Shown here piece after piece: positions 4,240-60,813 of a stretch of DNA of 64,000 nt (position 1 is the stretch's first letter; the number at the start of each line of letters is the position of its first letter). The notes under the pieces are model-generated. The model made no database searches and was not told the DNA's origin. It was given only the letters and a program-made list of their open reading frames with translations. Origin of the DNA: Odiellus spinosus (lineage: Eukaryota > Arthropoda > Arachnida > Opiliones > Phalangiidae); contig OY987226.1 in the NCBI GenBank assembly GCA_963920705.1, positions 28,900,706 to 28,964,705 of the forward strand, given 5' to 3'. Made by a program: the position numbers and the translations under genes.

Positions 4240-5800
4240 AGAATATTCTAAACATGCTTTATAGTTTTACGACACTCTATGCTCGTGTCTCTGTTGTTTT
4301 GCCAAATGGCCGTACCTTACCTTGCTTGTTGGACTCTGGTTCGGATTTCTCCCATTTTAATGAGGGGACATGGACTGCTCTTTTTCCTGATTGGGTTCCA
4401 TCCCCCGATCGTCCACCTGTTACAATGGCCGATGGCTCCTCCCAAGTAGTGTTGGATGCACGTCACTTCACGATTAAAATTCGGAATCATCCATTTTCCA
4501 ATGAATTTTCCTTAGTTGAAAATTTAGTGGAACCTGGCATTCTTGGTCGTGATTTTTTGATTAATCATGCAGTGACGATGGATTATGGTTCTGGTACGGT
4601 GGCTTTATTCACAAATTAGCATTTCTTTTGATAATTATGATAATGACTCTTTCCCGCCTTGTGATGGGGACTTTGAGTTTGAAATTGATAAAGCTGTCTC
4701 CCGCACTTCGTTATCAGATACACAGCGTCAGGATTTACGATGTCTTTTGCGTGAGTTTCCTTCTGTGTTCTCTGTAAAGCCGGGCTTGACGACTGTCACC
4801 CGACATGTTATTAATACTGGTGATGCTGCTCCAATTGCTTCCAAGCCTTATAGGGTTTCTCGGTTAAAGGAACGCCTCATAGAACGTCATATTGACGAAA
4901 TGCTAGAGAATGATATTATTGTTCGTTCCCAAAGTCCCTGGGCTTCTCCCGTGGTGGTTGTCCCGAAAAAAACCCCGTTGCATGACTGTGATGTGAATGC
5001 CCCTGTGAGTTCTTTTAGCCGGTTTTGTGTGGATCTGCGACGTCTCAATGCTGTTACTATTCGGGATCCTTACCCAATTCCACGGATCGATGATCTTATC
5101 GATGTTTTGGGTCAGCCTTCTTTTATTACAGCTTTGGACCTCCGTTCTGGTTTTTGGCAGGTTCCGATGGATCCCGATAGTCAGGCTAAGACATGTTTTA
5201 CTACCCATTATGGTAACTTTGAGTTTTTACGCATGCCCTTTGGTCATGTAAATTCCCCGTCCACCTTTCAGCGCATGATGCAGGATGTGTTACATGAACG
5301 TCGTCATTATCAGTCGGAAGTTTATTTTGATGACGTTTTGACAGCCCACGCAGAATGGCAACCACATCTTGCTGCCCTTCACTATATATTTTCTCGCCTA
5401 GCCATTGCCAATCTTACGGTACGTTTAGACAAATGTGATTTTGCGAAATCTGAGGCCAAAATCTTGGGTCATATCCTTAGTTCCAAGGGTGTCAGTGTCG
5501 ATCCCCAAAAGCTTGCGGATGTACGTGATTTTCCATCTCCTAAAAATGTAAAACAGCTGGAACGTTTCTTGGGATTCATGGGTTGGCATCAGAAATTTAT
5601 TCCGCGTTATGCTGATCTCGCCCAACCTCTCTATAGTTTGCGTCGCAAGTTTCAACGATGGCGTTGGACCAACGACCATCAGTTGGCATTCGAATCCTTG
5701 AAATCTGCTCTTTTGTCTGCGCTTCCCCTTTCCACCTCTAGGGACGACTGTCCATTCCTATTGACAACTGATGCTTCAGATGTTGGTTTGGGGGCTATGC
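4240..5800 (+). pseudogene. Gypsy B protease and reverse transcriptase
   Basis: A retropepsin with the LLDSGSDFS active-site motif and the ILGRDFL motif occupies about 4260-4617. It is followed by reverse transcriptase with SPWASPVVVVPKK, FCVDLRRLNAVT, PFGHVNSPSTFQRMM and the catalytic loop YFDDVL near 5325. The beginning of RNase H (LTTDASDVGLGAML) ends exactly where element C is inserted at 5801. These enzymes process the polyprotein and copy the RNA genome. Confidence 0.88.
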
Positions 5801-6114
5801 TGTAACGGGGATGGTAAAGGGATCCCTAGGTACGGGGATAGGGGCTTATTTCCAGCATAGGTTCCTTTGGCTTTCCCTAGGTGCTGCATCGGGCCTCCAT
5901 ATACCCTAGATTCTCGACCCTGTGAGATCACGTGACTACCTAGGTTAAAAGGAAGACATCAACCCAGCCTCGGGGCAGATTCCCAGTCGACGCCCAGGAG
6001 ACCAGTTCTATATCAAGCTTTAGTTCTGTACTAGAAGTTCCTGTTGATAATTAAATTGCCTTTTAAACTAGTTAACTGTCTGATTATTAGTAAATAGTTA
6101 AGCGCACAGTTACA
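5801..6114 (+). repeat. 5' LTR of Gypsy C
   Basis: The LTR runs from TGTAACGGGGATGG to AGTTACA, with the expected TG…CA ends. It is followed by TGGAGCCACCGCCGAG near 6117, a tRNA-primer-binding-like site whose complement ends in CCA and contains a T-loop-like GTTCGATC. The match to 14111-14439 is nearly perfect. Confidence 0.95.
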
Positions 6115-6705
6115 ATTGGAGCCACCGCCGAGATCGAACAGTTATATCGGGATAATTTTTTTTTTTAAACTAAGTTTTTCGGTTGCCAGTTTTTCGTGAT
6201 TTTTGGATTGAAATTTGTGCGCGACTGATCTGAAGAGGAATTAACTTATTAGTTATTTGGTGTGAACTGAAAGATTGGTTCTCGTCTAGTTTATGTGCAT
6301 GTGCTCATCTCTGAAGCTCAGAAGATTCTTTGGAGTCCAGCTCTCGGTTTTTGGTTCCGAACGCACTGGAAGGGTTTGTGCGGTTTATTTCCGTGGTTGC
6401 CTAGGACGCTTGTGGTGACGTAAATTCGGCATAAAAAATGCGGATTTCGTAGCTGTTGCTTTCTTTTTTCTCGTTGCTTCTCGCCCAGAGCAAGTTCCTT
6501 GTTTTCGCCCGCGAAATTTCTTTGTTCCCTTTGTTTTGCTTTTGCAGTGCCAAGGTAATTGCGATTAACTGTTTTTATTATTATTGTGTTTTATTACTTT
6601 TTAGTTTTTGAATATTCAATTTTAGATTAGGTTTTTATTAATTTTGAAGTTTTAATTAGGTTTTTTTAAAGTTTTAAGTCGTTTTTCGCGAAGCCTTGGC
6701 TAATC
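6115..6705 (+). other. Leader (5' UTR) of Gypsy C
   Basis: This untranslated leader lies between the primer site and gag. It is T-rich with several poly-T runs and no long frame. It would be expected to hold packaging and dimerisation signals, but none can be identified by eye. Confidence 0.6.
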
Positions 6706-8385
6706 ATGTGGGCAATCGTAGGGATAGTAGTTGCGACGATTTTGGTTTGCTTGGGTCTCTTTGGATTTTGTTTTTTAAAATTTGGGCCGTTGTTTTTTAA
6801 CCAGTTTAGTGATGCAGGTTCTTTTAGTCCTAAATTGCAAGGGAGACCAGTACAAAGGAGGAATCGTAGGGATACTTTAAATCTGCCTAGGAATTACCCA
6901 GTTCGTAATCGTAGGGTTCTTGATGTGCGGAAGAATCCTCAGGAGGAGCTTAATTTGATTCAGCGTTTTGTGGCATCTTGTGTAGATGATAGATTAGATT
7001 TATTGAAGGGTAAAACGCCTTTGGTCGAACCCAGGTTAGCACCTAATGTTCCACGGGTGCCTACAGTTTCACCAGAGCCCCCTTTAGATGTTTCCGAGGA
7101 GGTTAATGTTTTAGATGAGACTCCGTGTCTAGAGGAAATGGTTAATCAACGAATTCAGCAACAGCTAGACGAGGCAGAGAATTTAAGTAGGCGGCAGAAT
7201 CAGGGGGCTTCTCTATCACAGAGGGATCGTTTTGAGGCGGAATTAGAGAATCAGCGCGAATTGGACAGGACAAGACAGCGCCAGCGAGATATTGAACGAC
7301 AAATTAGGATAGATACACAGGCTCGTGATGAGTTCACTCAAGGGGTGGATAATCCTTTACCTAGTTGTCCTTCAGTTCCTCAACCTCAGGGATGCCCAGG
7401 AGTTCCGTTCGATTCAAGGGTTAGGTCCTCAAGTCATAATGATATAGATCCGATTAGTGGCGAGGAACGAGTTCCAGCTGTTCTCATAGCTCACATGAAA
7501 ATGCCTACATTCTCCGGTGATACCCAGGAAGATCCGAAATTGTTTTTGAAAACCTTAGAGAATTTTATTTTATATCATATAATACGTAAGGATGATTTAC
7601 CAGTGTTATGCCCTTTGATTTTTACGGACAGTGCTAAGATTTGGATAGAAGAGTTTTTTCTTAGGCATGGCGAGAATATTTCGTGGAATACCTTGGCGTT
7701 GGCTTTTAAAACTCGATATTTATCACAAAGTCGTGAACAGTCAATTCGGATATCACTATACAGTGCCACGCAAAACGTTGGAGAGGATTTATGGATGTTT
7801 CGAAAGCGAATAGTAGGCATTAATAGGTTATTAGATTCTCCTTTAGTGGAGGAAGAGTTAGTAAAGCTTTTACTTTCCAAGGTTCCTCCTATGGTTCAGT
7901 TATTGATTTCTGAGGATGGTTGCACAACGTTAGAAGATTTTGATCGGGAAATTTTAAGAATTCAGACAGCTTGGGAACGCGGGGTAAATATGGAAGGAAT
8001 CAATAATGGGTTGACTAATATGGGAAATAGCGTTGGCAGTTCAGGGTTTGGAAGAAATTCCCGTGGAAACGTGTCAAACCATGGTTCAGGGCCTTGGTCG
8101 ATGGGGAATAATTCTCGTACTGGTTCCGCTAATCAAATAAGCTCTAGACCCGCAATTACGCGGGGAGATGCTAATAATGGTTGTTTTTTGTGCGGAAGCT
8201 CAAGCCATTTCCGTAGAGAGTGCCCCCAACTACAGGCGTCACCTAGGGCATCTAGGATTGGTCAGAGACCTCGTTTTTCTTCGGTCTCGTCCCAGGGTGG
8301 TAGTGCTTCCTTACCGTCGGGAGTTAATCAGATATCTAGTAACACCCCAGTCCCTCGCCCTCTCGAATCTAATTCGGGAAACTAG
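6706..8385 (+). CDS. Gypsy C Gag with N-terminal membrane anchor
   Basis: This 559-aa frame begins with a strongly hydrophobic segment (about residues 2-24, GIVVATILVCLGLFGFCF), predicting a signal anchor. Next comes a Pro-rich stretch and a Gln/Arg/Glu-rich region with coiled-coil character (about 145-215). A capsid-like domain follows (about 265-425: MPTFSGDTQEDPKLFLKTL, then RYLSQSREQSIRISLYSAT). The C-terminal part is Gly/Ser/Asn-rich with a CCHC knuckle, CFLCGSSSHFRREC, near residue 490. Gag builds the particle; an N-terminal transmembrane segment is unusual for Gypsy Gag and suggests membrane-associated assembly. The stop lies directly after a GGGAAAC frameshift heptamer linking it to pol. 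Confidence 0.88.
   Translation: MWAIVGIVVATILVCLGLFGFCFLKFGPLFFNQFSDAGSFSPKLQGRPVQRRNRRDTLNLPRNYPVRNRRVLDVRKNPQEELNLIQRFVASCVDDRLDLLKGKTPLVEPRLAPNVPRVPTVSPEPPLDVSEEVNVLDETPCLEEMVNQRIQQQLDEAENLSRRQNQGASLSQRDRFEAELENQRELDRTRQRQRDIERQIRIDTQARDEFTQGVDNPLPSCPSVPQPQGCPGVPFDSRVRSSSHNDIDPISGEERVPAVLIAHMKMPTFSGDTQEDPKLFLKTLENFILYHIIRKDDLPVLCPLIFTDSAKIWIEEFFLRHGENISWNTLALAFKTRYLSQSREQSIRISLYSATQNVGEDLWMFRKRIVGINRLLDSPLVEEELVKLLLSKVPPMVQLLISEDGCTTLEDFDREILRIQTAWERGVNMEGINNGLTNMGNSVGSSGFGRNSRGNVSNHGSGPWSMGNNSRTGSANQISSRPAITRGDANNGCFLCGSSSHFRRECPQLQASPRASRIGQRPRFSSVSSQGGSASLPSGVNQISSNTPVPRPLESNSGN
8376..8382 (+). promoter_or_regulatory. Probable -1 ribosomal frameshift site (gag-pol)
   Basis: The heptamer GGGAAAC is phased as G GGA AAC in the gag frame and sits immediately before the gag stop at 8383-8385. 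The pol frame is open from about 8373 and lies in the -1 frame. This is the classic X XXY YYZ slippery pattern used by many retroelements to make Gag-Pol. A downstream pseudoknot or stem was not verified. Confidence 0.75.
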
Positions 8386-8396
8386 AGTTCAGTGCC

Positions 8397-11300
8397 TTGG
8401 TAGGGTCGCAAGGTGCTTGGGAATCTCAGATTGACCCAGTTGTTAGGTTGAATTCCGCGGTTTTGGATTTGGGGGATAGTAAATTAAAGGGAATTAGAAT
8501 TTCAGTGTCAAATAAAGAATGTATTGCCTTCCTAGATTGTGGGGCTGACCAATGTATTATAACACGCGAATTTTTATCTGAATTAGGGTTAATGAATTTA
8601 TTGGTTTCTAAGCCTCGGACTGTGCAGTGGATGAAAAAAGGTTTTACGAGTAATTCCTTAGGTTACGTGGATTTAGAAGTGGATTTTGGGGAGGACATGG
8701 GGATAATGCCAGTAAGATTTCAGGTAGTCCCGGGTTTGGAATTTCCTCTTACATTAGGAATGGGCCTTTTAGACGATATGAGAGCCGTGATAGATAATTA
8801 CCGTAACGTGTTTAGTTACTGTGGAAAAACTTTGCCTTTGGTGTACCTACGGGATGAGGTAGCAACATTAACCGGGGGTGATCAAGTTTTAGGTCCCCCT
8901 AAACCTAAGGTAGATTTTTCGTCATTGAATGTAGGCCAGTTAACGGAGGATGAACGGTGGGATTTATCAGAACTTAGTCAGGAGTTTTCAGAGCTTTTTT
9001 CGGGGAAATTGGGTCGTACCAATATCGTTCAACATCGTCTTAGGTTAAAACCAGGGACTGTTCCTATAAGGAGACAACCTTATTCACATAGTCGTGCAAC
9101 TAGTGAGGAAATTGATCGACAAGTTCAGGACTTATTACAGAAGGGGTTGATTAGGCCATCTAATAGTCCATGGGCATCTCCTACTATAATAGTTCCTAAG
9201 AAAGATACCTTGGAGAAGCGGATGTGCGTTGATATAACAAAGTTAAATAGTGTTACGCTAGATGACCCGTATCCCATACCCAAAATAGATGACATTATAG
9301 ATAACATGGGAAAGCCTAGGTATATTACTAAATTAGACCTAAAGTCCGGTTATTGGCAGGTTGCCATGGCTCCAGAGGACATAGAGAAAACTGCCTTTGT
9401 AACTAGAGAGGGCAAGTTCGAGTGGTTAGTTTTGCCGTTCGGTTTGAAAGGGGCACCGGCAACGTTCATGCGGTTGATGAATAAAGTCTTACGATTTGCT
9501 CGTAGATATGGTATTGGGATTTATCTTGACGATGTGGTGATAGCTAGTACCACATGGGCTGACCATTTAGCGGCTTTACGTTATGTATTCTCTCAATTTA
9601 AACACGCAGGTCTTACGTTAAACGTTGGTAAATGTTTTTTTGGGGTTCCTAAGGTTTCGGTTTTGGGCTACCTGGTAAGCGCTGAAGGGGTAGAAGTAGA
9701 TCCGGAGAAAGTTCGGGCGATTAAGGATTTTCCACGCCCTCGTAACATGAAACAGGTGTCTTCTTTCCTAGGCATGTGTGGTTTTCATTCGAGATTCATT
9801 CCCCATTATGCAGACTATACTGCCCCTTTAAATAGATTAAAACGGAAAAACCAAAAGTTTCGTTGGGGAGACACAGAAGAAAACGCGTTTCAGAGTTTAA
9901 AAACAGCTATTTCCCAGGCAGTCTTGTTACAAGTTCCCGATCCAAATGGAAAGTTTATAATCACAACAGATGCTAGTGGAATTGGAATGGGTGGCATGTT
10001 ATCACAAATTCAGAATGGTGTCGAGGTTTCCTTGGGATATACAAGTAAACTCTTTAAGCCGGCAGAATTAAGATATAGTACCCCGGAACAGGAGGCCATG
10101 GCAGTAGTAGAGGCTGTACGAAAGTTTAGACATTATGTGGAAGGTAGGGAGTTTGCCGTAGTCTCTGATCATCAAGCGTTATGTTGGATGTTGAAGCTTA
10201 AAAATAAGAAAAGTAGACTTATGAGATGGGCCTTGGAGCTTCAGGAGTTTATGCCATTCGAGATTTTGCATAGAGCGGGGAAAGATAATTTAGTAGCTGA
10301 CGCCTTATCTAGATGCCCAGTGTCAGACTTAGATGTTGTATGTCCTAAGGTTATAGATAGCGATTATGTAAGTTCAGATTTATCAGCACTTCCAATGCCC
10401 GATAATCAATCCTTGAACGCTTTTCGTTTGAATATGTCGATTTGTAACCCGGTAGACCTTGGACAACCTCTGGATTATGTTACTTTGGCAGAGATAAAAC
10501 AGGCGCAGTTGTTAGAGGGTCAATTTAGCGAAATCAAGGGCAAGTTAGAAAGAGGTGAAGATTCTAAGGTATATTGTATCAAAGATGATTTGCTTTATAG
10601 AAAGGCGGAAGGTTTTAAGCCAGCTAAAGTGGTGGTGCCTACAGAATTAATACCTCGGTTAATGCAGGCTTTTCATAATCACCCTCTCTCAGGTCATAGA
10701 GGCCGTACAGCAACATACATGAGAGTTCAGGCTAAATATTACCATCCTAGGTTGTATTCCTTGGTTCAGAAATACGTACAGAATTGTGACACTTGCCAAC
10801 GGTATAAAAGTAGAAATACGAAGAAGCCAGGGTTAATGATTCCTTCGCATAAAATTCACCCAGGAGACTTGGTTGGGATAGACATAATGGGTCCCCTTCC
10901 AGTGACGAAGCAGCAGAACCGTTTTTTAGTCGTAATGGTAGATTACTTTACCAAATACGTAGAGGTTTTCCCTGTTAGGAGTGTTACTGCCCTAATATTA
11001 TGTAAGGTTCTATTGCAGTATGTGTCTCGTCACGGTGTTATGTCTGCCTTGTTGTCGGATAATGGGCCCCAGTTTATTTCAGGATTATGGAAACGGTTGT
11101 GCATGATGTTGAAAATAAAACTAAAGTTCGTGTCACCTTACCATCCCCAGGCTAACATGACGGAGAGGTGTAATAGGGTAATTGGGGAAATAATGAGTAT
11201 TTATGCTGGGAATGTCCATACTACTTGGGATGCCCACTTGCCTTTAATTCAATTGGCGGTTAATAGCGTTGTACATAGTTCTACCGGATATTCCCCGTTT

Positions 11301-12530
11301 TACCTTCACCATGGTTATGAGCCTACGCTTCCTTGGGATGAGAGAGTTTTTGCGGGGATTCCCGAGCAGGGGGTTGCAGAAATTTTGGATTATGACCAAG
11401 GTCCGTTAAGAGAATGGCAACGAGCAATTGATATGGCCCAGGAAATAAATAGTGTTGCTAGTGCAAAACAGAAATTTTTCTATGATCGGAACTACCTTGG
11501 AAGTGAACTAGAAGTAGGACAGTTGGTCTGGAAGTCTGGCCATAGACTTTCAAATGCGGCTGCGAAATTTAGCGCTAAACTAGCTCCTAATTGGGAAGGT
11601 CCTTTTAGAGTTGTTGAGAAAGTGTCCCCGGTTTCCTATCTGATAATGAACTTAGAGACAGGAGCCTTGGCTGGTACGTGGCATATTTCTAAATTAAAAC
11701 TCTGTATGAATACGGTAGTTTTGGAGACTCAGGAACAAACGGTTGCTCAGGTCGATCCTTCTATACCAGTGGGGGCAACAGTTGCTCAGGTAGACCCATC
11801 CATACCGGTATTGGATACTCAGGAACAGCCGGGTGCTCTGGTTGACCAATGTATACAGAGGTTGGAGATCCAGGGAAATCCTATTAACAATGAAGTAGCT
11901 GTGCCGATTCCTTTGGAAAATGAGTTAAGGGTTGAAGAAGAGGCGATAGATTTAGACCCACCTCGTTATATGCTGCGCAGTCGGGTTGTTCGAGATACAT
12001 TTCATACCCAGGTGGGAGAAACGAGTATAGTGGTTGAATTTCCGAGTGAAGACGAGTTAGAAGTCCAAGGGGGGCCTCAATCAGTGGAATTAGATCAGAC
12101 TTGCGAAATGGGGGTTGAGCGGGGTGTAAACCTCGGTACCAACAATAATCGCCTACAACGTAGAGTTAGATTTTTGGATGAAGTTTCAGTAATTCCCGAA
12201 CTTCCTCCTGATCATCAGGCTAGCGAGGTACCTAGGTGTATGGAGGTTGAGGAGTTGGATACTACTGGTAAATCACAGGACTTGCAGTTACCTTTTTTGC
12301 ATGGTTGGACAAGGGAAGTGGTGTTTAGGAGACAACCATCTACCCGTTTGGGAGATGTTTATTATTATACCCCGGATAAGGTGAAGGAAAAATTAAGGTC
12401 CTTGAGACAAATCGAAGCCTATTTACATTCATATCCGTTAGATTCTAAGGGGTTGTCTGTTGATAATTTTTCAATGTCACCTATTCCCATTTCAAGACCT
12501 CCCTTTGAGTTAGTCCGTCATGCTCATTAG
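8397..12530 (+). CDS. Gypsy C Pol polyprotein with C-terminal MBD-like module
   Basis: The frame encodes about 1377 aa. The usable frame starts inside the gag end and is reached by frameshifting rather than by an ATG. Domains in order: retropepsin (LDCGAD, about 46-51); RT (MCVDITKLNSVT about 275, YLDD about 376); RNase H (TTDASGIGMGGML about 522, DNLVADALSR about 633); integrase HHCC zinc finger (about 760-805); integrase core with D in GIDIMGPLP (about 826), D in LLSDNGPQF (about 887) and E in MTERCN (about 921). An acidic linker of about 200 residues precedes an MBD-like segment (about 1298-1345: GWTREVVFRRQ, GDVYYYTPDK, then a LRSLRQIEAYL-type helix). It would process Gag-Pol, copy the RNA and integrate the cDNA. 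Confidence 0.93.
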   Translation: MVGSQGAWESQIDPVVRLNSAVLDLGDSKLKGIRISVSNKECIAFLDCGADQCIITREFLSELGLMNLLVSKPRTVQWMKKGFTSNSLGYVDLEVDFGEDMGIMPVRFQVVPGLEFPLTLGMGLLDDMRAVIDNYRNVFSYCGKTLPLVYLRDEVATLTGGDQVLGPPKPKVDFSSLNVGQLTEDERWDLSELSQEFSELFSGKLGRTNIVQHRLRLKPGTVPIRRQPYSHSRATSEEIDRQVQDLLQKGLIRPSNSPWASPTIIVPKKDTLEKRMCVDITKLNSVTLDDPYPIPKIDDIIDNMGKPRYITKLDLKSGYWQVAMAPEDIEKTAFVTREGKFEWLVLPFGLKGAPATFMRLMNKVLRFARRYGIGIYLDDVVIASTTWADHLAALRYVFSQFKHAGLTLNVGKCFFGVPKVSVLGYLVSAEGVEVDPEKVRAIKDFPRPRNMKQVSSFLGMCGFHSRFIPHYADYTAPLNRLKRKNQKFRWGDTEENAFQSLKTAISQAVLLQVPDPNGKFIITTDASGIGMGGMLSQIQNGVEVSLGYTSKLFKPAELRYSTPEQEAMAVVEAVRKFRHYVEGREFAVVSDHQALCWMLKLKNKKSRLMRWALELQEFMPFEILHRAGKDNLVADALSRCPVSDLDVVCPKVIDSDYVSSDLSALPMPDNQSLNAFRLNMSICNPVDLGQPLDYVTLAEIKQAQLLEGQFSEIKGKLERGEDSKVYCIKDDLLYRKAEGFKPAKVVVPTELIPRLMQAFHNHPLSGHRGRTATYMRVQAKYYHPRLYSLVQKYVQNCDTCQRYKSRNTKKPGLMIPSHKIHPGDLVGIDIMGPLPVTKQQNRFLVVMVDYFTKYVEVFPVRSVTALILCKVLLQYVSRHGVMSALLSDNGPQFISGLWKRLCMMLKIKLKFVSPYHPQANMTERCNRVIGEIMSIYAGNVHTTWDAHLPLIQLAVNSVVHSSTGYSPFYLHHGYEPTLPWDERVFAGIPEQGVAEILDYDQGPLREWQRAIDMAQEINSVASAKQKFFYDRNYLGSELEVGQLVWKSGHRLSNAAAKFSAKLAPNWEGPFRVVEKVSPVSYLIMNLETGALAGTWHISKLKLCMNTVVLETQEQTVAQVDPSIPVGATVAQVDPSIPVLDTQEQPGALVDQCIQRLEIQGNPINNEVAVPIPLENELRVEEEAIDLDPPRYMLRSRVVRDTFHTQVGETSIVVEFPSEDELEVQGGPQSVELDQTCEMGVERGVNLGTNNNRLQRRVRFLDEVSVIPELPPDHQASEVPRCMEVEELDTTGKSQDLQLPFLHGWTREVVFRRQPSTRLGDVYYYTPDKVKEKLRSLRQIEAYLHSYPLDSKGLSVDNFSMSPIPISRPPFELVRHAH

Positions 12531-12626
12531 GGAAATTAAGTAGGGATATGCTCAGGTTATCATTGGGTACTTAGGTTGCCATGGAAGCCTTAGAGTGGAG
12601 AGTGATTGGTAGTTTTTTATGTTTAG

Positions 12627-13910
12627 ATGTCACGTTTGGCGGCTAAATTTGTGCTTCCGCCAACGCCGGACCCGGAAGATTTGAGTTTGAAAGATCCAGC
12701 GGCGGATTTGGAGTTTGTTGAGGCTCCGTCGGTTGATGCCTTGGTGGTTCAGGAGTCTGCGGGTCTAGGCGACATTGCGGAGGTTGAGGCTGGTTTGGAG
12801 GAGGAAGTTTTGGGTACGTCCCGTTCCTTGGCAGAGCAGAATCCCGGTGATGAGGGTCGTGAAGTTATAGAGGCACGACCGGCCTTGGCGGGTTGTATGG
12901 TACGAGCAGCAGCGCAGTCAAGTCTAGCCGTTTCTTCCGGAAGTTCGGCGTCGGGATCTACGTTCGACTATCGGGTTGTTCTGCCTAGACAATCATCCAG
13001 GGTGCCGGACTGGCGGTTGTCAACACCTTCAAGAAATATAGGAGCCTCCGTAGTGGAGTTTGATTATGTCGACCCATATTTTGAATTGTCCCTTTTTCGA
13101 CGAGTAACGTCGTGTCGAGTTCCCTTTGGTGAATTTTGCGCTCGAAACCCGGGGTTATTTCCTGCAAATTTATTATGTTGTGTCACGCATTTGGGGGGAG
13201 TGATAGACGAGTTAAATTTTGAGCGTTTGGAAGCTATCTTGAGAGAAGTGGATTTGTACGCGGTAGTTGGGATCGGTCCTAGTTTTGCGGGACGTTACGA
13301 TTCGTTTGGTGCGGAACAATTATTGCTGAATGCCTTGGCGCATTCCAAAGTCGTGGGAATCGGAGGGATTGGACTGGACTATCGTCATTGCATTCACGTG
13401 GTTTCTAAGGCAACACAAAGGGATGTAGCGCGGGCGCAATTACGCATCGCTCAACGTTTCCACCAGCCAGTGTTGGTTTTGTGTATTGAGCCTTTCCCGC
13501 ATGCTTGCTATGAAGCATATCCGGATTTATTGGATTTATTGGAGGAAGAACTACCTTGGAACCATTCCATTCTATTTTTGAACTTTACGGGCACAAAATT
13601 TTTTGTACAAAAAGTTTTACAGTTGTTCCCTAACGCGTTCTTTGGTTTTTCCCCTATGATTTCGTTTCCATCTATGGACCACGTTCGTGAAGCTTTTATG
13701 GCAACCCCGAGCGCATCAGTGGTGGCCCATTCCTATTCTCCCCATTTTTTCATGGCCGGGGTATCTAGTGAAGTGCGAGCTAGGGAGGTTGCTCCGTGCC
13801 CTGGTGAGGTTAAGGCGTTAATCCACTACTTGGCCCAGTTGCGGGGAGTCCCCGTATTAGCGGTTGCCCGGAAGGTCCGCGATAATATTAAAAGGTTGTT
13901 ACGTGTCTAG
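12627..13910 (+). CDS. Gypsy C third ORF with TatD-like C-terminal domain
   Basis: This 427-aa frame starts at an ATG about 95 bp after pol. The N-terminal 140 or so residues are acidic and low in complexity. From about residue 180 the order of motifs matches TatD-family metal-dependent DNases: a CVTHLGG-like first strand, VVGIGGIGLDY (about 241), KATQRDVARAQLRIAQRF (about 258), FFGFSPMISF (about 340), and a C-terminal RGVPVLAVARKVRDNIKRL helix. Whether the domain is enzymatically active cannot be judged by eye and should not be assumed. A related frame occupies the same position in element D. I know of no standard Gypsy ORF of this kind; it is not envelope-like (no signal peptide or membrane segment seen). 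Confidence 0.75.
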   Translation: MSRLAAKFVLPPTPDPEDLSLKDPAADLEFVEAPSVDALVVQESAGLGDIAEVEAGLEEEVLGTSRSLAEQNPGDEGREVIEARPALAGCMVRAAAQSSLAVSSGSSASGSTFDYRVVLPRQSSRVPDWRLSTPSRNIGASVVEFDYVDPYFELSLFRRVTSCRVPFGEFCARNPGLFPANLLCCVTHLGGVIDELNFERLEAILREVDLYAVVGIGPSFAGRYDSFGAEQLLLNALAHSKVVGIGGIGLDYRHCIHVVSKATQRDVARAQLRIAQRFHQPVLVLCIEPFPHACYEAYPDLLDLLEEELPWNHSILFLNFTGTKFFVQKVLQLFPNAFFGFSPMISFPSMDHVREAFMATPSASVVAHSYSPHFFMAGVSSEVRAREVAPCPGEVKALIHYLAQLRGVPVLAVARKVRDNIKRLLRV

Positions 13911-14110
13911 GTTAGTGCCTTGGTAGCAATAATTTTTTTTTTTTTATCGCGAACTGGCGACTTGTGTACTTTTTGTTTTTTCTCTCCAGGTGTTGGGTTA
14001 AGTGGTTTATGTTGTGGTTCACCATAGTGTGAAATTAAATTCTTTGGATTCATGGTATTGGTGTGTCTCGTTACTTTTACCTAGGTCTCCCTTTTTATGG
14101 AGGGGGAGAG
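13911..14110 (+). other. 3' untranslated region and polypurine tract of Gypsy C
   Basis: A T-rich stretch ends in the purine run GGAGGGGGAGAG at about 14098-14110, directly before the 3' LTR. This is the expected plus-strand primer. Confidence 0.75.
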
Positions 14111-14439
14111 TGTAACGGGGATGGTAAAGGGATCCCTAGGTACGGGGATAGGGGCTTATTTCCAGCATAGGTTCCTTTGGCTTTCCCTAGGAGATCTTTC
14201 CCTAGGTGCTGCATCGGGCCTCCATATACCCTAGATTCTCGACCCTGTGAGATCACGTGACTACCTAGGTTAAAAGGAAGACATCAACCCAGCCTCGGGG
14301 CAGATTCCCAGTCGACGCCCAGGAGACCAGTTCTATATCAAGCTTTAGTTCTGTACTAGAAGTTCCTGTTGATAATTAAATTGCCTTTTAAACTAGTTAA
14401 CTGTCTGATTATTAGTAAATAGTTAAGCGCATAGTTACA
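14111..14439 (+). repeat. 3' LTR of Gypsy C
   Basis: It matches 5801-6114 apart from a 15-bp internal duplication-type length difference (around GAGATCTTTCCCTAG) and about one base change. It ends at the ATGC target duplicate. Confidence 0.95.
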
Positions 14440-16627
14440 ATGCTTTCCCAAGTCCAGGGTTCTACGGAGGTTCCCATCGCTTATCTCAGCCGGGTATTGA
14501 ATTCTGCTCAGCGTAATTATTCCACTACTGAAAAGGAATGTCTTGCGGTTGTATGGGCTGTGGGGAAGTGTCGTCATTTTTTGGAAGGTCGTCATTTCAA
14601 AATTTATACGGATCATAAGTCTCTTTGTTGGCTTATGAATCTTCAAGATCCTAAGTCGCGTTTGGCCAGATGGGCTCTATTGCTTCAAGATTTTGATTTT
14701 GAAATTCTCCATAAACGGGGTTCTGTTAATGTGGTTGCGGATGCCTTATCTCGGGCGCCAGTTGACTCCCCATCTCCTTTTATGGATGATCAGACTGATG
14801 ATAGTGGTGACGATATTGGGTCTAACTCTGTTATATTGTCTTCCAGTTCTGGTGGCCATATTCGCGCTGTTAGAGCATGTATTAATATCTCGGATGTAGA
14901 GACGTCCCTATCTACGTTGTCTCGAAAGGAAATCCGCGAACATCAGTTGACAGACATTAAATTTGGCGATATTTATAAGGCTTTACTCCCCGGTCACCCA
15001 GATGTACCACACCCTCGTCCTGATCTACATCAGTATAATATACATGATAACATCTTATATCGGAAGATAACCAGACAGGTTTTTAAGATAGCTCTCCCCA
15101 ACACATTGATTTCTAAGGTTCTTCACCTTGTTCATGACCATCAGTTTTCTGGTCATCTTGGAGTAAAGAAGACGTGTCAACGTGCCCAGTTTCAATTTTG
15201 GTGGCCAAAAATGAAATCGGACATCGCTAAATATGTACGTAGCTGTTTAGTTTGTCAGCAACGGAAACCGCGTAATACTTTGAAACCTGGCCCTATGCAA
15301 TCCACCATAGTCGATGGTCCTTGGTCAATGGTTGGTGTGGATTTGATGGGACCCCTCCCTATAAGTAGTAAGCGTAATCGCTTTTTACTGGTTTTTACCG
15401 ATTATTTTTCCAAATGGGTTGAATTTGTTCCCTTGTCTATATCTATCGCCGATGCATTGGTATCCCGAGTGGTTCGACAATGGGGTAGCCCCGTTCGTCT
15501 TCTCAGCGATAATGGCCCTCAGTTTATTTCTGAGTTATGGCGTGCCACCTGTGAGAGGATGAATATCCATTGCACATATTTCTCCTTATCATCCTCAGAC
15601 TGATCAGACGGAACGGGTTAATCGCGTTGTGGGCGATATGATTAGTTCCTACGTGGGTAATAAACATACATCTTGGGATGCTAATCTGCATTTATTTCAA
15701 TTGGCATACAATAGTGCTCCTCATGAGTCTACCGGGCAATCTCCATTTTTTATTAACCATGGGCGTGAGGCACGTTTTCCATGGTTGGAAGCTGCGTTTA
15801 ATCCCCATTTACAAGGAGATCCAGCACAAGTCCGGGATTACATTCATGATGTTATCACTCCCATGCAGGCTATACTGGATGATGTCCGTCATAATATTGC
15901 TCGTTCTCAGGAGAAACAACGACGATATCATAATACCTCTCGGATTGTTTGGGAACCTGATGTTGGTTCTTTGGTTTGGAAAAGAACTCATCCTGTTTCT
16001 CAGGCTGCCGCAGGTTACTCAAAAAAATTGGCCCCCTACGAAATCATTGATGTTTTGAATCCATTGGCCCCTGTACTGAAAGATGTTCGTACAAATGAAA
16101 ATGTTGGCTCATGGCATATAGATCAACTTAAACGTTATTATAATCGTGATTCATCGTTGCCAGTCTTCCCTGATGGCCCATTACTTGATGAGGCATTGCC
16201 CGACGCACCCGTACCTGTTATAGTGACTCCCCTGGCTAATCCCATACTGCTCGGAACTGATTGTTCTACTGATACTGTCATAACGATCCCTGATACATTG
16301 GATGTTCCTTCATCCCCTGTTTCGTGCATCACAGCGCCAAAATCTATTACCCCTATTAAGGATGATAGTCCTTTGGCCTTGCCTTTTCGTTCTGGTTGGC
16401 ATCGCAGGGTTGTTACACGTGCTACTATTCGACCTGGTGGCCCGACGGCCGATGTTTTTTACTTTTCTCCTGAGGGTAAGAAGTTTCGATCGAAACCTGA
16501 AATAATGTCTCACCTATCTTCTCTTAGGGACGGACATGGTTTAGGTGAAGCGAATTTTCTTTTTACTCCCGTTTTGATCTATAAACCCCCTTTTGAGATC
16601 TTGCGTTCGGCTTTTGTTCGCGATTAA
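14440..16627 (+). pseudogene. Gypsy B RNase H, integrase and MBD-like module
   Basis: This continues B after element C. RNase H motifs (YSTTEKECLAVVWAV, TDHKSLCWL, NVVADALSR) come first. The integrase HHCC finger (HDHQFSGHLG…CLVCQQRK) follows near 15130-15270, then the core with GVDLMGPLP and LLSDNGPQF. After a Pro/Asp-rich linker comes the clearest MBD-like segment of the Gypsy set at about 16379-16530: GWHRRVVTR, then ADVFYFSPEGKKFRSKPEI. It would integrate element cDNA, and the C-terminal module may recognise chromatin or methylated DNA (inference). The region is broken in at least one place. Confidence 0.85.
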
Positions 16628-36040: not shown

Positions 36041-36974
36041 GGTAGAACCGCTACCTATGCCAAAATTAGGGCTCGTTATTATCATCCCCAATTGTACATC
36101 CTGGTAAAGAAATATGTTAAGGAATGCGAAGTTTCTCAACGATATAAGAGTAGAAATACAAAGCGTCCAGGTCGTATGATCCCCTCGTATAAAATACACC
36201 CAGGAGATTTAGTGGGAATAGATATTACGGGTCCATTACCCTGTACTAAAAATCAGAATCGATTCCTGGTAGTAATGGTCGATTATTTTATTAAACATGT
36301 TGAAGTTTTCCCCGTCAGAAGCATTACAGCTCCAATATTGTGTAAAGTGTTGCTCCAATATATATCTAGGCATGGTACTATGGCTGCCATTTTATCAGAC
36401 AATGGGACCCAATTTATATCTAACCTTTGGAAACAATTATGTCATAAGTTGAAGATTAAAGTAAAATTTACTTCTCCTTATCATCCCCAGGCCAATATGG
36501 GTGAAATCATGAGTGTATGTACAGGAAATGTACATACAAAATGTTATGAACATTTACCTTTGATTCAGTTAGCTATTAATAGTACAGTACACGCATCTAC
36601 TGGTTATTCCCCTTTTTATCTCCATCACGGTTATGAACCCACGTTACCCTGGGATGAAAGAAGTTTTGAGGGAGTACCAATTAATGTAGAAACTGTTTTA
36701 AAGTATGAAAAAGGACCTATATATGACTGGCAAATAGCTATAGATTTCGCACAGGGAATAAATTAACTAGCTAGCATGAAACAGAAGTATTTTTATGATA
36801 GAAATTATACCAGCGGAGAACTTGAAGTGGGTCGGTTAGTATGGAAGTTGGGTCATAGATTGTCAAATGCTGCTGCCAAGTTTTCTGCTAAGTTTGCACC
36901 TCGTTGGGAAGGGCCTTATCGTATTGTTGAAAAGATTTCCCCTGTGAGTTATGTAATTATGGAGATGAGTACTG
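36041..36974 (+). pseudogene. Gypsy D integrase
   Basis: The C-terminal half of the HHCC finger is followed by the core with GIDITGPLP, MVDYFIKHVEVFPVRS, ILSDNGTQF and HPQANMGEIMSV, then LAINSTVHASTGYSPFY and the C-terminal barrel-like KFAPRWEGPYRIVEKISPVS. Similarity to C (YHHGYEPTLPWDER-like motifs) is very high. It is broken. Confidence 0.82.
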
Positions 36975-38255
36975 TAGAGGACTGCAAACCCTTACCAAAA
37001 AAAGTTAGTCTTAAGAGGTCTTTGGGAAGTCTTTCGGGTGTCTTATGCAGTCTTAAGAGGTCTTTGGGAAGTCTTTCGGGTGTCTTATGTAGTCTTAAGA
37101 GGTCTTTGGGAAGTCTTCCATTATGTAGAGAAGTCCTGGGGAAGTCTTAAAGACTTCCCCAAGACTTTTGTAGTGTTCTTGAAGACCTCTTCAGATCAGA
37201 CTTTTTTTCCGTAAGGGAAGGCTTTGGGAGAACTGCACTCCCTCAGAAAGCCAAGGGATTCCCTCATTTTTGGTTGGAGTTGGGTTAAATAAAAAAATTG
37301 GCTTTGGGTGGCTTTGGGAATATTGTCTCTGAAATGAGTCGGGAGGGAGGGGGAATTTTATTATATTTATTTCTGGAGTTGGGTGCGATTGGGTTAATGC
37401 TGGATTTAGTTGGAGTTTTGTTGGCGTTGGAATTTATAATTTCAAAATGGAGTTGGTGGCATTGGAAGCGAGCTTTTGGGTCCCGATTCCAGGGCTAGTG
37501 GGGCCCTCTATTAGTCTATATAAAAAAATAAAAAAAAAAAACATAGCTTCAATTAATGCATTTGGAAACCAAAACTAAAACATAACTTTCGAAGCTCGTG
37601 GGTCACTGGATATTTGGAACTTTGGATTGTTATTCTTGGAGAGTCTACAGAGTACAGACGTAAAACTTTTGGGTTCTAGTAAATATAATGGCCAGTAAAA
37701 CTACTAATTCATTTAGTATGTTAATGCGAAATAGCAATATTCTGAGTCGGGAAGTGTTAAATCCGCATGTTTTCCAAATTCAATATCAAAGAAAGTAGAT
37801 GACGTAGTATGTACTTTTAAACAATGTAGTAACTTTGTAGTTGGAATTCGATAGGGAGGTGTTGTGGGAAACCTTTTTAGAAACGGAATTTGAAATAGGT
37901 TAAGTTTATTTACACGAACTGCATGCTGGCTTCCGAATTTCGTATATTTGAATTCATATAATTGCTATAGAAATTAGAATTTGGAGTTCAAAGGGGTTGG
38001 CTTTGGCAGGAAGTGGAAAACGTGTGAAACTAATAATTAGCTTTGGCAGGGATTGGGAATCGTGTGAAACTTATCAATTGGCTTTGGAAGGGAGTGGGAA
38101 TCGGGTGAAACTTATTTATTGTTTTTTTTTTTTTTTTTTTTTTCATAGTATGGAGTTGGGTGGCTTTGTAAAGATTGGCAGTCGCGTTTGTAAAACATTT
38201 ACCGTTGGAGTTGGCCGGCATTGGCATTGAGTTTTTTTCATTTTGCAGCCCTCTA
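36975..38255. mobile_element. 1281-bp hAT-like non-autonomous element in Gypsy D
   Basis: The ends are TAGAGGACTGCAAA and the complement of TAGAGGGCTGCAAA. Perfect 8-bp target duplicates GAGTACTG lie at 36967-36974 and 38256-38263. The interior has recurring TTGGCTTTGG/GGGAGTGGGAATCG motifs in loose tandem copies (37990-38115) and poly-T/A tracts, but no transposase. The termini and 8-bp duplication suggest hAT. A smaller MITE (36989-37217) is nested just inside the left end. Confidence 0.85.
36989..37217. mobile_element. CCCTTAC-type MITE, copy 2 (229 bp)
   Basis: The ends are CCCTTACCAAAAAAAGTTAG and the complement of CCCTTACGGAAAAAAAGTC, with AA on both flanks. Internally, about 55-bp units (CTTAAGAGGTCTTTGGGAAG) occur three times, so this copy has expanded relative to 18913-19091. 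Confidence 0.75.
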
Positions 38256-38263
38256 GAGTACTG

Positions 38264-39015
38264 GAGCCCTTGCTGGCACCTGGAACATTAATCAATTAAA
38301 ATTATATGTGTACGGCATCCCTAGACACACAGGAAGTCTTAGAACCTCAGATTAACCCAACCGTTGTAATAGAACCAGTTGTAGAGGAACCTCCCGTCGA
38401 CCCTGATCAAACTTTTTTGATGTTTTCTGCAGCGAGAATTGCTCCCACTGATATCGACGATGATTCAGAATTATTAGTTATTGTAGTACAGGATAATACA
38501 GTACCGGATTCCGTAGAACAAATAGAATCTTCCTCGTCTTTAGTCCCATATTTTAACCCATTATATACCAGTTTAGATACTTCAAATGTAACCGATTCAG
38601 ATGAGTCTTTGAATGACAGAAATATAAATGATCAAATGGGTAGCTCTATAGTTATCGAGGAACCTTCTAGTGGAAGTGAGAATGAGGAACCTCCTCGTTA
38701 TTATTTAAGGTCAATTGTCAGATTTTCTAATCCCCTTATAGAAGAGATACCGTTTGTTTTAAACCCAGTAGTTGATCTACAACCCCTTGTTGTTAATACT
38801 GACCCTGTTGTAGCTACAGGTCTTGGAGAAATGGATAATCCATTGTTAAATCCTTTTTCTTATGGTTGGCATAGGGAAGTGGTATTCCGTAGATCCCAAG
38901 TTTCGCGTCTTGGAGACGTCCATTATTATTTAACCCGGGCCCTAATGTTAGAAAATTACATTCATTTCCTGATATTGAAGATTATCTCTTATTACATGCA
39001 GTTCCCCATGTAATA
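38264..39015 (+). pseudogene. Gypsy D Pol C-terminus with MBD-like remnant
   Basis: It begins with LAGTWNINQLKLY-type integrase tail sequence, as in C. An acidic linker, a YYLRSIVR motif (compare RYMLRSRVV in C) and an MBD-like segment at about 38849-39000 (YGWHREVVFRR, LGDVHYY) follow. The MBD-like end is degraded. Confidence 0.7.
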
Positions 39016-39183
39016 AGATTCTAAATAGGTCTAACTTTTCAATGAAAGCTATACCTATTGCTTATCCCTAATATGAATCTGTACGCCATTCGTAATTTTA
39101 TTGTTGTCCATATATTTTTATAGATGCACTTATCTAGAGGGTCTTATTGAGGAGGCCTGCCTCCTTCTAGGAGTCGTACAACG

Positions 39184-40668
39184 TTGCATTCTAACATTGA
39201 TAAGGAACAAACGTCATTCGATGCACTTAAGAGAATTGAAATATTAGAAACAAAACTACCAAGTACCCCTTCATCGAGTGAAACCCATTTGAAGGAAGAA
39301 TCTTCAGTAGCTCTTAATTCAGCAAAGAGTCTTCCCGGTCAAAACCCATCGAAAGATGAACCTTCATTACCGCTTAATTCAGAAGAAAGTAGTTCAAGTC
39401 AATCTCAACTGACGGAGGACTCTTCATTACCGCTCAATTTGGTAGAAGAAAGCATTTCAAGTCAAACTCAAATGAAGGAAGAATCTTTAGTAGCGCTTAA
39501 TTCAACAGAGAATCTTTCAAGTCAAACCCCATTGAAAGATGCACCTTCATTATCGCTCAATTCCGAAGAAAAAAAGTATTTAGTCATCAACAGTCGAATG
39601 ACCACGAAACTTTATTGTCAGTAGGAGTCTGTAAGGAACTTAGTCGCGATTCTGGAAAAGAAGAGGTCAGTTCCATTTGCTCCCAAACCGTTCTGTCCCC
39701 TTCAGATGGAAGTGTTTCACAGGATATTATTGATTATGCTCGCCCTTAGCCTAAAAACGTTTCGCCCACTCATTCTTTATCAGTGCAGGATAACCCTATC
39801 CTTTAAGTGGATATTTTGTTTCCGTTTGGCCCATTTTCCCATGAAAATAAAGTAACGATACTCTTTCATAAATATGTTGAAACACATCCCCACTTATTCC
39901 CCGGCAGCTTTGAAGGATGTGTTGTTCACGTGGGAGCTAAACTGGACGATTTAACTTCATCTCATCTTCTTCAGTATGGCAAGACCCCTGGGTGTTTATA
40001 TGGTTGTAGGAATTTCCCCAATGTTCGCTCGAGCCTTTTGTAGTCGGGATATGGGTCCCTTAGTCAGAGAAAGTTTGGGGTAGGCTGGAGTTCGGGAAAT
40101 TGGAAATATTGGCCTCGATTATACTAAGACCTTACTAGCCTCGTGTTCCAAAATCCAGCAGGAAGTGGCTTTCCGAAAACAACTAGTAATAGCCGAGGAA
40201 CGGGGACAACCTGTGTTTGTCCACTGTAGGCAAGCGTTTAATGAGTGTATAACAATCCTTCAACACGAATTGCCTAGTAACCACCCTATTATTATTCTTA
40301 CTTTTATGGGCAATATATTCCATGCCCATCAATTTTTGAGTTCCTTTTCAAGGGTTTCTTTTGATTTCAGTCCCCTGTTAGCCAGGTTTAACACTGTTGC
40401 CACCAGAGTAGCCCTACGACAAATCCCCATTAATCGTATCTTGGTAGAATCTAATGCCCCGATGATGAAACCCATTGGTCTTCCATTACCTGAAAATACT
40501 CCTAATACCTCGGGGGTAATTCACCCTTTACTCCACCTTATGGCTGAGATCCGTAAGGAGTCGGTATCCCAATTTGCTTACCATATTCGCGATAATACCT
40601 ATAGGGTTATTGGAGTCTCTTTAATTACATTTTTTGTTGGACTTTTTTTTTTTTTTGTCTTTCTCTAA
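39184..40668 (+). pseudogene. Gypsy D ORF3 region: Ser/Glu repeats and TatD-like domain
   Basis: The first part (39184-39624) is a run of imperfect repeats of about 22-24 residues rich in Ser, Glu and Leu-Asn (SSQTQMKEESLVALNSTEN). The second part (39807-40668) has a CVVHVGAKLDDL strand, AFRKQLVIAEERGQPVFVHC, a NRILVESNAPMMKPIG segment and a C-terminal SQFAYHIRDNTYRVIG helix. This order matches TatD-family DNases and is more typical than in C. It occupies the same slot after pol as C's ORF3. Enzymatic activity is unproven and the region is broken. Confidence 0.68.
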
Positions 40669-40902: not shown

Positions 40903-41294
40903 TGTTATGGGGACCCTTTTTATAACCTTTATAATCAAAGATCCAAAGCTTACTTAGGTTCATGACCTGCATGCTATGAAATGGCCGGGTTCATTCATGG
41001 TATCAACCCTTGACTAAACCACCTAATGAGGGCGTTGCAGAGGGATCACATGGCCATAATAGATATCATGTGACACCCAATGGTAGCCTCTATATATTAC
41101 AAGGATGAACTTTCACGAAGGGGAATTCTAGCGGACGATCCAGAGAGGAACTCAGGATCACTTGTTGACCATTATATTAAATACTTTAACTTAGATTTGT
41201 AACGTACCCATCGTAATTACTTTATAGATTATTAAACCAGTTTATAATATATTATAGAGATAGTTATTTCCTTGACTGATACCCGCTAGTTACA
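40903..41294 (+). repeat. 3' LTR of Gypsy D
   Basis: It runs from TGTTATGGGGACCC to GCTAGTTACA, about 392 bp. The portion from 41153 on is also present, inverted, at the extreme right end of the window (to 64000). Confidence 0.75.
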
Positions 41295-42783
41295 CTTTTT
41301 TGAATGTAAAAATAATTATCTCGCAGACGGATGTGCCATATTGCTGTATTTCTTCTCCCAAAAGTCGATTTAGCGTTTTAAACTCCATGTTTAGCTAATT
41401 TTATTACTGATACCGATAGAATTTAAAAATAACATCAATAAGGAAGGAAGGTTTCCTAGGTCGCCTTTATCCGTTTTTTTGAAAATATATAATAATAATA
41501 AAATCTTTGAAGTAGTAGACTAAATCTACTAACTATAATTTTAAAGATATGAAATTGCTCTTTCCCTAACAATTAATTTGTGTCCCTTCACGGGTTTGAT
41601 TCGAGTTAGATAAAGAGCCCTTTTTTAAGGGTGCAAAGCAACCTCTTTTTTGTATAATTTGTCCCTTTTTTCACCAGAAATATACATCTTTTCCACATTT
41701 CACTATTTTGCTTTATAGGTCTATTGAACCTTAATTCTTACTAATGCTGAATAAAAATTATAGCGTTTAATTGGGGCTTCAATCTATTCGTAACTGAGAC
41801 TCTAGTACAAATCTCGAAAGACAGAGATTAACTAACCTAACCTTACCTAAAGTAGTAAAAGAGAGATGGGCTAATTCAAGGGATTAACTAACCTAAACCT
41901 AATCTTACCTAAAATATTACAAGTGGAACGGGTTAGCCCGAGCTAGGGATTACCTAGTTATAGGGATGGGCTATTTCCAGGGATTAATTAACGTAATTTA
42001 ACCTTACCATAAAGATTACATGATCGAATGGGTAGCCCAAGGGATTAACTAGTCGGAAGGACGGGCTAATTCGAGGAATTAACTAGCCTAACCTACAATA
42101 TTACAAATAGCCCGAGCTAAGGATAAATTTGTTGGAGGGATTGGCGGGATTTTTTAACAATAGGAAGTGGGGAGAGGGTAGAGAAAAATGAGACGAATTT
42201 TATGGTGCAAAGATTTTCCACCGCAAACCATTATTAAGAAAGTTAGAAGAAATTGAAATTTTTACCTTCCTATGTAAAAATCCCATAGATTAAGGTTTTT
42301 CACAAGACGAAAATTCAATTATATCTCTACCTACACATTGTCATAATTACTTTTGCCTAACCTAACCTAAATTAAACTTGCCTAACCTAACCTAAATTAA
42401 ACTAACCTAACCTTACCTAAATTAAACTAAACTAACCTTAATTAAACAGAAAAAAAAAAACAAATTTAATATTGTGGTTTTATGTATAAATATTCACGAA
42501 AATAATTTTTCAATCTGGGAGTCGTTGTTTTCTACATTTTAGGGTCCCTGTATTCTTATCAACCTTTTAACAGTAACTTGCTAATTTGCTTAGAAAAATT
42601 TTAGAACCAAAGGTTAGCCTTCCCAAAATTTCTGGGAAATTTGTACTTCTCGCAAGTTCTCGGGGAAATGGGAATTTTAGTGGGCATTGGGCAACGCCGC
42701 AATGGTAAGCTTTGGCGCATCGCTATTAATTAAGCGCGTGTAACTTTCTTAATAATAGTTTGCGGTGCCCCATTTTGGGTAAA
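41295..42783. other. Arm DNA with CCTAA-like tracts, no gene
   Basis: It contains repeated GGGATTAACTAACCTAACC-like phrases (41820-42120) and short (CCTAA)n tracts (about 42355-42425). A motif near 42215 (ACCGCAAACCATTATTAAG) recurs inverted near 42745, suggesting a larger degenerate inverted repeat. No coding frame was recognised. Confidence 0.5.
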
Positions 42784-43435
42784 GTGAAGAATAGGTCCCA
42801 GTAACGAATTCAGGAAAAATGTACCTTATCTGAAAGAGAAAAATGCGAGAAAAATAATGGGGGGGGGGGGGGAAAGCATTATTAAAAAAGATACAGACGT
42901 TTCAATTTTAATTATGCTCCATTGTCATTGCCCGGTATTTCGGAATACGCAGGGGGAAAGGGCGGCCACTGTTGCCAGGTTAATAAAACTTGGGACTAAG
43001 AGGTCGGTGCGGGTCGGTGGAAGATATGGTTATTTAAAAGTTAGCTAGGTGACTGAAAACATGTCACTGTAGGTTAGGTTAATTTAGGTTAGGTTAGGTT
43101 AGATTAAGTTAGGTGTATTTGTTTCCAGCAAGTTTGCTTTTAAAATTTAATAATATAAATATTTTTGTATCTTTTTTAAGGTTTGAGAAAATAAAATTGT
43201 TGTTTTTCTTATTCTACTTAGTATAATTTCCCGTCTTCCAACCCTCCCCCTCCCCGTTTGCCCGAATACAGTGAAATGATGAGGGCGAGTAATTAATATA
43301 GAAATGGCTGTATCTTTGTTAATAATGGTTTCCCCCCCCCCCAAAATATTTGCACCATTATTTTTCTCTCATTTTTCTCTTTAAGAAAAAAAAAAATAAA
43401 AAAAAGAAAATTGGTCGCTGGGACCTATTCTTCAC
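42784..43435. mobile_element. 652-bp MITE, GAAGAATAGGTCCC family (left arm)
   Basis: Its termini are GTGAAGAATAGGTCCCAG and the exact complement. Poly-C/G runs and two facing 5'-AATAATGG/CCATTATT segments lie inside, along with TTAGG-like tracts. It has no transposase. Its counterpart in the right arm is 61740-62389, and a 97-bp relative is at 17688. Confidence 0.75.
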
Positions 43436-44077
43436 AATTCCCACCATAATTTTTCTCTTATTATTCTCTTTCAGAATAAAGGCACCCCCCCTCCAAAATG
43501 TTTTCAGTAGCTATTCTACAATCTACCCGGATTGGCTAATTAGAGCGATTAACTATCCAGAACTTTCCTTAAAGATTACCATATGGAAGGGATAGCTCGA
43601 GGGATTAACAAGTTGGAGTTATGGGCGAGGGATTAACTAACCAAGCCTTCCCTAAAATACTACAAGAGACACGGGTTAGACCGAGCTAGGGATTAAATTT
43701 ATAATATGGAATCGCATCGACAAAAAATGGGCATGGAAGGCGAAACAATTATTTAAAGCAAGAGAGCATAATTCAGGAGACCAGAAGCATGTGGCCGTTT
43801 ATTTAACTCGCCGACATCAATTTCCGTTTCGCCTATCATATTTAACATTGTATAAATCTTTATTTTTTAATATACTTAAGTTAGATGTGCTTTAGATCCA
43901 GACTTTAAAAATTGGCCAACTACTTCAAAGCAATGTCATTACGTAGTAGTAATAACGGTGCTTTTGGATCATCGGGACTTTTATTTGACTTAGACAACTA
44001 TTTGAAAATCGCTTAGCTACCTAAATAATTAATAAATACAAATTAATGTGAGTGTAAGGATAGCCGCTAACCTATAT
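43436..44077. other. Arm DNA, no gene seen
   Basis: This is AT-rich, with GGGATTAAC phrases at 43590-43700. No recognisable coding sequence is present. Short open frames here are mirrored in the other arm and have no family signature. Confidence 0.4.
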
Positions 44078-44361
44078 CAAGAAGGATCAGACAAGGAGAG
44101 GAAAAGTGGGGACGGCGCAGTTCCTACTGCGTCGGCCTAAACTCCCACTCTGGGAGAACGGGGGTAGAGATGTTTCGTTGTAAAATGTTGTCACGTGGGT
44201 AAAACGGATCCTTTATCAGCTTCGTAGTAGTCAACGACGCTAGTGACCACGTGACAACAGTTCGAGAATTTCCTATCCCCCTTTCCACCCGAGTGGGAGG
44301 TTGGCTCTTCTCTCTAACTCAACACAGCCCTACTTTTCCTCTCCTTGTCTGATCCTTCTTG
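44078..44361. mobile_element. 7-bp-TSD MITE, copy 2 (left arm)
   Basis: It has TIR CAAGAAGGATCAGACAAGG and its complement, with perfect 7-bp target duplicates CCTATAT at 44071-44077 and 44362-44368. It is 284 bp. Confidence 0.9.
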
Positions 44362-44422
44362 CCTATATCATTCCTATTTTGTCGTCTGCTAAAAAGCTGT
44401 TTATCCTCCTGTTCTGTTATAG

Positions 44423-49050: not shown

Positions 49051-49158
49051 TGTTACGATAACTTGTAGAATTGTGAATGCTTCGTCGCAGCAGGTTAATT
49101 TAAATAGGTACGTGACATAATATTGTTTATTCCTTTTGATGTTTTTGTCCCTTGTTTG

Positions 49159-60752: not shown

Positions 60753-60813
60753 CTATAACAGAACAGGAGGATAAACAGCTTTTTAGCAGACGACAAAATA
60801 GGAATGATATAGG

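Follow-up and report, generated by a model that had tools for sequence, protein, structure and literature searches.

The third gene of a Gypsy element is usually taken to be env-like. What, then, is the third gene of the long terminal repeat (LTR) retrotransposon found in a 64,000-nucleotide stretch of Odiellus spinosus DNA (assembly GCA_963920705.1, contig OY987226.1, positions 28,900,706 to 28,964,705; hereafter the window)? An earlier note, made from the letters alone, had likened this open reading frame (ORF3, positions 12627–13910 of element C) to TatD-family nucleases, and had offered cDNA processing, host-DNA handling or non-enzymatic binding as its possible roles. We propose that one Ty3/Gypsy clade has, in the env position, a conserved accessory gene, ORF3, which encodes a TatD-fold pseudonuclease. 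We give this reading, together with the steps of expression and action described below, a probability of roughly 50%.

Homology and active site of ORF3

The four motifs quoted in the earlier note are present in ORF3, starting at residues 242, 264, 340 and 413, and the resemblance that they had suggested was borne out by a Pfam scan, in which PF01026 scored 78.2 bits (E = 8.4e-22, cut-off 27) and nothing besides TatD matched. The same profile scored above the cut-off in all eight further ORF3s scanned (65.5–116 bits). A search of PDB sequences also matched TatD chains (best E = 1.1e-6), and the ORF3 family scored higher against YcfH-type TatD (94.5–97.3 bits) than against TATDN1 (61–64) or TATDN3 (45). 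Structure prediction, recommended in the earlier note, gave a main model recognised in a fold search as a TatD-type TIM barrel, and TatD chains were again ranked top for a single-sequence model made without TatD rows. By both profile and predicted barrel, ORF3 belongs to the TatD family by descent and fold. A chance motif match was also considered and was rejected by the Pfam, PDB sequence and fold searches.

We then scored the catalytic positions of 10 family members by alignment to E. coli YcfH, in which we take E94, H130, H155 and D204 to be the metal ligands. The window ORF3 keeps none of the four. Of the 10 family members, none keeps E94, H155 or D204; the Glu is replaced by Gly, Asn or Ala, the second His by Leu or Met, and the Asp by Tyr, His, Gln or Asn in all 10 (D204 is gapped in L024). 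The VVGIGGIGLDY sequence, which had been read as a TatD motif, does occupy the GExGLDY site, but Gly stands in place of the metal-ligand Glu. The N-terminal HxH strand aligns poorly, and the window ORF3 has no HxH either at MAFFT's placement or at YVD. Two host TatD-type loci retain the ligands that were read, one on contig C12 (GECGLDF, FVHER, VIHSF and ESDSP) and one on C3 (FLHCR and VVHSF). Given that C and L011, its nearest intact cassette, share their replacements (GG, L and Y) despite saturated synonymous sites, the dead site itself is kept. Judging from the alignment, ORF3 appears to be a TatD-fold pseudonuclease whose catalytic metal site is gone, and a working nuclease, as the earlier note would have allowed, finds no support.

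Hydropathy analysis of nine ORF3s revealed no membrane segment or signal peptide: the top 19-residue values were 1.34 to 1.52, and those of the N-terminal 40 residues were at most 0.92. The usual limit for a membrane segment is 1.6. The TatD domain carries a net charge of +1 to +7 in all nine, and the N-terminal region is acidic and quickly changing in several members.

Position in the element and candidate splicing

ORF3 is the final gene of a complete element, whose features are listed below.

5797–5800 (right copy 14440–14443), no strand: target-site duplication ATGC, left copy, from sequence
5801–6114, plus strand: 5' LTR, 314 bp, TGTAAC...GTTACA, from comparison with the 3' LTR
6117–6134, plus strand: primer-binding-site candidate, starting TGG, 2 bases past the LTR, from sequence
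6552–6560, plus strand: candidate splice donor AAG/GTAATT in the leader, 5' of gag, from a sequence scan
6706–8385, plus strand: gag ORF, 559 aa, with a CCHC knuckle at residue 493 and a hydrophobic N-terminus
8397–12530, plus strand: pol ORF, 1377 aa, protease-reverse transcriptase (RT)-RNase H-integrase-methyl-CpG-binding domain (MBD), from profile matches, with YLDD at residue 376
12279–12479, plus strand: MBD at the pol C-terminus, residues 1295–1361 (PF01429, 34.5 bits, cut-off 21)
12612–12626, plus strand: acceptor-like T-rich stretch, its TAG end abutting the ORF3 ATG, from sequence
12627–13910, plus strand: ORF3, 427 aa, an acidic N-terminal region (about 146 aa) and a TatD-fold domain apparently without catalytic ligands
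13218–13901, plus strand: part of ORF3 matching the PF01026 profile, residues 198–425
14099–14110, plus strand: polypurine tract GGAGGGGGAGAG, from sequence
14111–14439, plus strand: 3' LTR, 329 bp

The element is whole and young, as had been supposed: gag, pol and ORF3 lie between the LTRs with ATGC on both sides, and a single substitution and a 15-bp indel are all that separates the two LTRs. The LTRs, target-site duplication, primer-binding-site candidate and polypurine tract expected of a Ty3/Gypsy element are all present, and pol has the order protease-RT-RNase H-integrase (protease profile 20.9 bits, below the cut-off of 26). Gag scored 21.4 bits against PF03732, slightly below the cut-off of 24.1. 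The start of Gag (6706–6800) is strongly hydrophobic, with a 19-residue hydropathy of 2.75 at residue 4, which suggests that Gag may be membrane-anchored. Element C is nested within a second Gypsy element, B, whose pol likewise ends in an MBD and in which TatD queries found no match.

Just 5' of the ORF3 ATG, a T-rich stretch ending in AG satisfied a strict acceptor rule in four of six long elements (C, L049, L050 and L053), and weaker acceptor-like forms occur in L051 (...ATTTTTATAG) and L052 (...TTTTTTTGTTAAG). As background, the rule passed 9 of 1033 ATGs in the six elements and 8 of 1878 in the window on both strands. In 11 further scans, with L052 again among them, the site was found at an apparent ORF3-type start in five (L005, L039, L040, L043 and L044); L040 and L044 also had passing ATGs elsewhere, L052 had them only elsewhere, and L002, L024, L025, L030 and L037 had no passing ATG. 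A donor-like AAG/GTAA(T/A)T, weak taken alone, occurs once each in three of the four leaders scanned. The acceptor-like and donor-like sites together have the layout that a spliced env message would require.

Selection and cassette exchange

We compared the proportions of synonymous (pS) and nonsynonymous (pN) differences between TatD domains. Over 280 codons, C and L011 gave a pS of 0.775, a pN of 0.107 and a pN/pS of 0.138 (0.104–0.176), in agreement with the earlier suggestion that the frame is maintained. The ratios were 0.188 for L053/L003, 0.202 for L007/L037 and 0.372 for L020/L024, with synonymous sites at or near saturation in every pair except L053/L003 (pS 0.564). The N-terminal region of ORF3 is looser than the TatD domain (pN/pS 0.491). 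Purifying selection appears to keep the TatD barrel of ORF3.

In the RT-RNase H region, the pS between C and L049 is only 0.067; therefore, the ORF3s of these two elements are far older than their pols. Their identity in 200-base bins is 0.92–1.00 in pol, 0.57–0.76 in ORF3, 0.87 behind ORF3 and 0.94 in the LTR, with one leader bin (6198–6397) also low at 0.755; the integrase and MBD are each 99% identical. The ORF3 of L011 is 88–96% identical per bin to those of L012, L013 and L015 (for L015 only over its match length), and some of the pol end in L012 and L015 is only 72–77% like that of L011. L050 and L051 form a further mosaic, with a pS of 0.031 in RT, 0.331 in the integrase, 0.425 in the MBD and 0.756 in TatD. 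Given these mosaics and the presence of old ORF3s beside young pols, ORF3 behaves as a cassette that moves from one element to another; the simplest route would be template switching between co-packaged RNAs.

Distribution of the family

Neither this swapping, nor the recurrence of ORF3 through a clade of elements, nor the MBD that ends pol was part of the earlier note. In the 443 Mb genome, in which the window lies on contig C2, PF01026 was found at 92 places at E 0.001 (105 candidates scored), host exons among them, and the ORF3 protein matched at least 101 places (the best 98 of 136 candidates were scored). The retrieved loci contain 37 distinct TatD places, which include copies in duplicated regions and are thus partly non-independent; an MBD lies within 2.5 kb upstream on the same strand at 28 of them, and an integrase at 25. 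ORF3 is open in L049, L050 and L053, whose paired LTRs are 99.7%, 100% and 100% identical; no LTR pair was seen within 10 kb at L039, L040, L043, L044, L051 or L052. The TatD ORF occurs in elements merely 67–77% alike in RT and integrase. Many copies are broken, with stops in many matching rows, and one of them lies in the window:

36041–40617, plus strand: second TatD element, broken (integrase 36041–36973, MBD pieces 38852–39092, TatD 39789–40617)

Its TatD part has a frame break and is 77–78% identical to the L037 type.

In a tree with 11 bacterial rows and one host row, the nine family TatD domains formed one group (100/100), and this fits one capture. Beyond this genome, among the best 7995 candidates by common words, ORF3 alone gave two proteins and a nine-row ORF3 profile gave 11, each of these 11 with a TatD Pfam label. 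In viral contigs, 64 stretches matched by pattern and none was confirmed by tblastn. In the giant squid genome paper (PMC6962438), a figure legend names, among the non-Hox genes of the Hox cluster, a pogo transposable element along with a 'putative deoxyribonuclease TATDN2'; this may represent a molluscan TatD-bearing element.

PF01429 was found at no fewer than 150 places (the best 150 of 415 candidates), many of them in open frames of 700–1700 aa, and two separate Gypsy elements in the window have a pol ending in an MBD (12279–12479 and 16349–16624). From these domain matches, the TatD elements appear to be part of a large MBD-Gypsy clade.

A near-identical second copy of ORF3 and its element lies outside the window in reverse orientation (G000:C2:28886059). 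It differs from the window ORF3 at 1 of 1281 bases, an apparent inverted duplication, and was excluded as evidence of selection. The window also contains inverted arms (41153–46375 and 58800–64000; 5.2 kb, 99.4% identical), and these arms and the inverted copy reflect either a palindromic duplication or an assembly effect. Tandem arrays, their units 108/100 bp and 25 bp long, occur at 49050–52500 and 57584–58158.

Possible role of ORF3

The account in PMC12709183 describes TatD enzymes as acting on single-stranded DNA or RNA ends, human TATDN2 as acting on R-loops, and medaka tatdn2 as expressed in germ cells. The likeliest role of ORF3 is to hold such ends or hybrids and leave them intact. 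The protein would be made from a spliced subgenomic RNA running from the leader donor to the AG before the ORF3 ATG, and would hold 3' ends, single strands or RNA-DNA hybrids uncut, presumably those of the reverse-transcription intermediate or the target. Such holding may shield the ends from host nucleases, including the host TatD enzymes, and so could help the cDNA to survive or integrate. Among the three roles offered in the earlier note, non-enzymatic binding fits best.

Several observations weigh against this interpretation. The main structure model, which drew on aligned TatD proteins, has a mean pLDDT of 58.4, and that of the single-sequence model is 45.8. H130 is kept in three of the 10 members, and L004 shows an HxH where MAFFT places the poorly aligned strand, although L003, its sister at 82% identity, shows none. 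More distant pairs gave high pN/pS (0.585 for C/L052 and 0.415 for L050/L051) with saturated synonymous sites. The L053 leader, one of the four scanned, has no donor-like site, and nine of the 37 TatD places have no MBD upstream, many loci being covered for only about 1.5 kb on that side. Finally, at +1 the window copy carries little net charge for a nucleic-acid-binding protein.

The exchange pattern, in which ORF3 cassettes are far more diverged than the RT of the same elements, also fits an antagonist or decoy of a host factor, that is, a dead TatD fold that pairs or competes with a host TatD-type nuclease or another factor in a conflict that drives cassette diversification and swapping. 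Host TatD-type loci are present in this genome, and the vertebrate protein tatdn2 works on R-loops in germ cells, as the same account has it (PMC12709183). However, no host TATDN2 was recognised in this genome and cassette exchange happens without conflict too; we consider an antagonist unlikely, though with a real chance of being correct. The strong constraint on the domain, the His at the H130 position in three members and an invariant Cys (C294) adjoining that position in a nine-row alignment would also suit an enzyme whose active site has been rebuilt with other residues or chemistry. The loss of the catalytic Glu, second His and Asp throughout the family makes this quite improbable, and no new conserved cluster of His, Asp or Glu was noticed, no systematic search for one having been made.

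A barrel that serves particle assembly or cDNA trafficking, in the manner of a nucleocapsid-like helper and with no need for nucleic-acid contact, would agree with the post-pol position and the acidic, fast-changing N-terminal region. The domain is, however, of nuclease-family origin and mildly basic in all nine ORF3s, and we regard such a helper as very improbable. The many broken copies might even point to a passenger, a captured fragment of a host or bacterial gene without function. We find this scarcely credible: selection between cassettes holds pN/pS well below 1, and ORF3 stays open in elements with near-identical LTRs and recurs in elements of low RT and integrase similarity. We reject a passenger or pseudogene on the pN/pS values and the recurrence after pol-MBD. 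We favor the end-holding pseudonuclease.

Comparison with known systems

A survey of the literature, mostly open papers and without Repbase, on TatD or TATDN2 with retrotransposons and transposable elements found no such element announced, and a TatD pseudonuclease as the third gene of a Gypsy element looks new. With slightly less than even confidence, we suggest that an LTR-retrotransposon clade acquired a TatD nuclease a single time, abolished its catalysis, and has since maintained it and passed it between elements as a spliced cassette in the env slot, as an undescribed pseudonuclease accessory gene beside a methyl-DNA-reading integrase. A conserved dead nuclease at this site in young elements provides a defined protein for studying the ways in which retrotransposons shield or guide their cDNA in the face of host nucleases, and target choice by the MBD-tailed integrase is also testable.

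ORF3 shares its profile, predicted barrel, C-terminal helix and framework motifs such as GLDY with the TatD nucleases of PF01026 (E. coli TatD and YcfH, S. aureus TatD, human TATDN1 and TATDN3), but differs from them in its missing metal ligands, its additional N-terminal region and its location in a retrotransposon. Like the env-like third ORFs of Ty3/Gypsy elements, it lies between pol and the 3' LTR and has an acceptor-like start, and the proposed spliced subgenomic RNA would resemble that of retroviral env; unlike those ORFs, it has TatD as its only Pfam match and no membrane segment by hydropathy. An arthropod retrotransposon family with a captured MBD was reportedly described by de Mendoza et al. 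in 2019, and is said to consist of Copia elements. Element C is likewise an LTR element carrying an MBD, but it has the Gypsy order RT-RNase H-integrase-MBD, followed by the TatD ORF.
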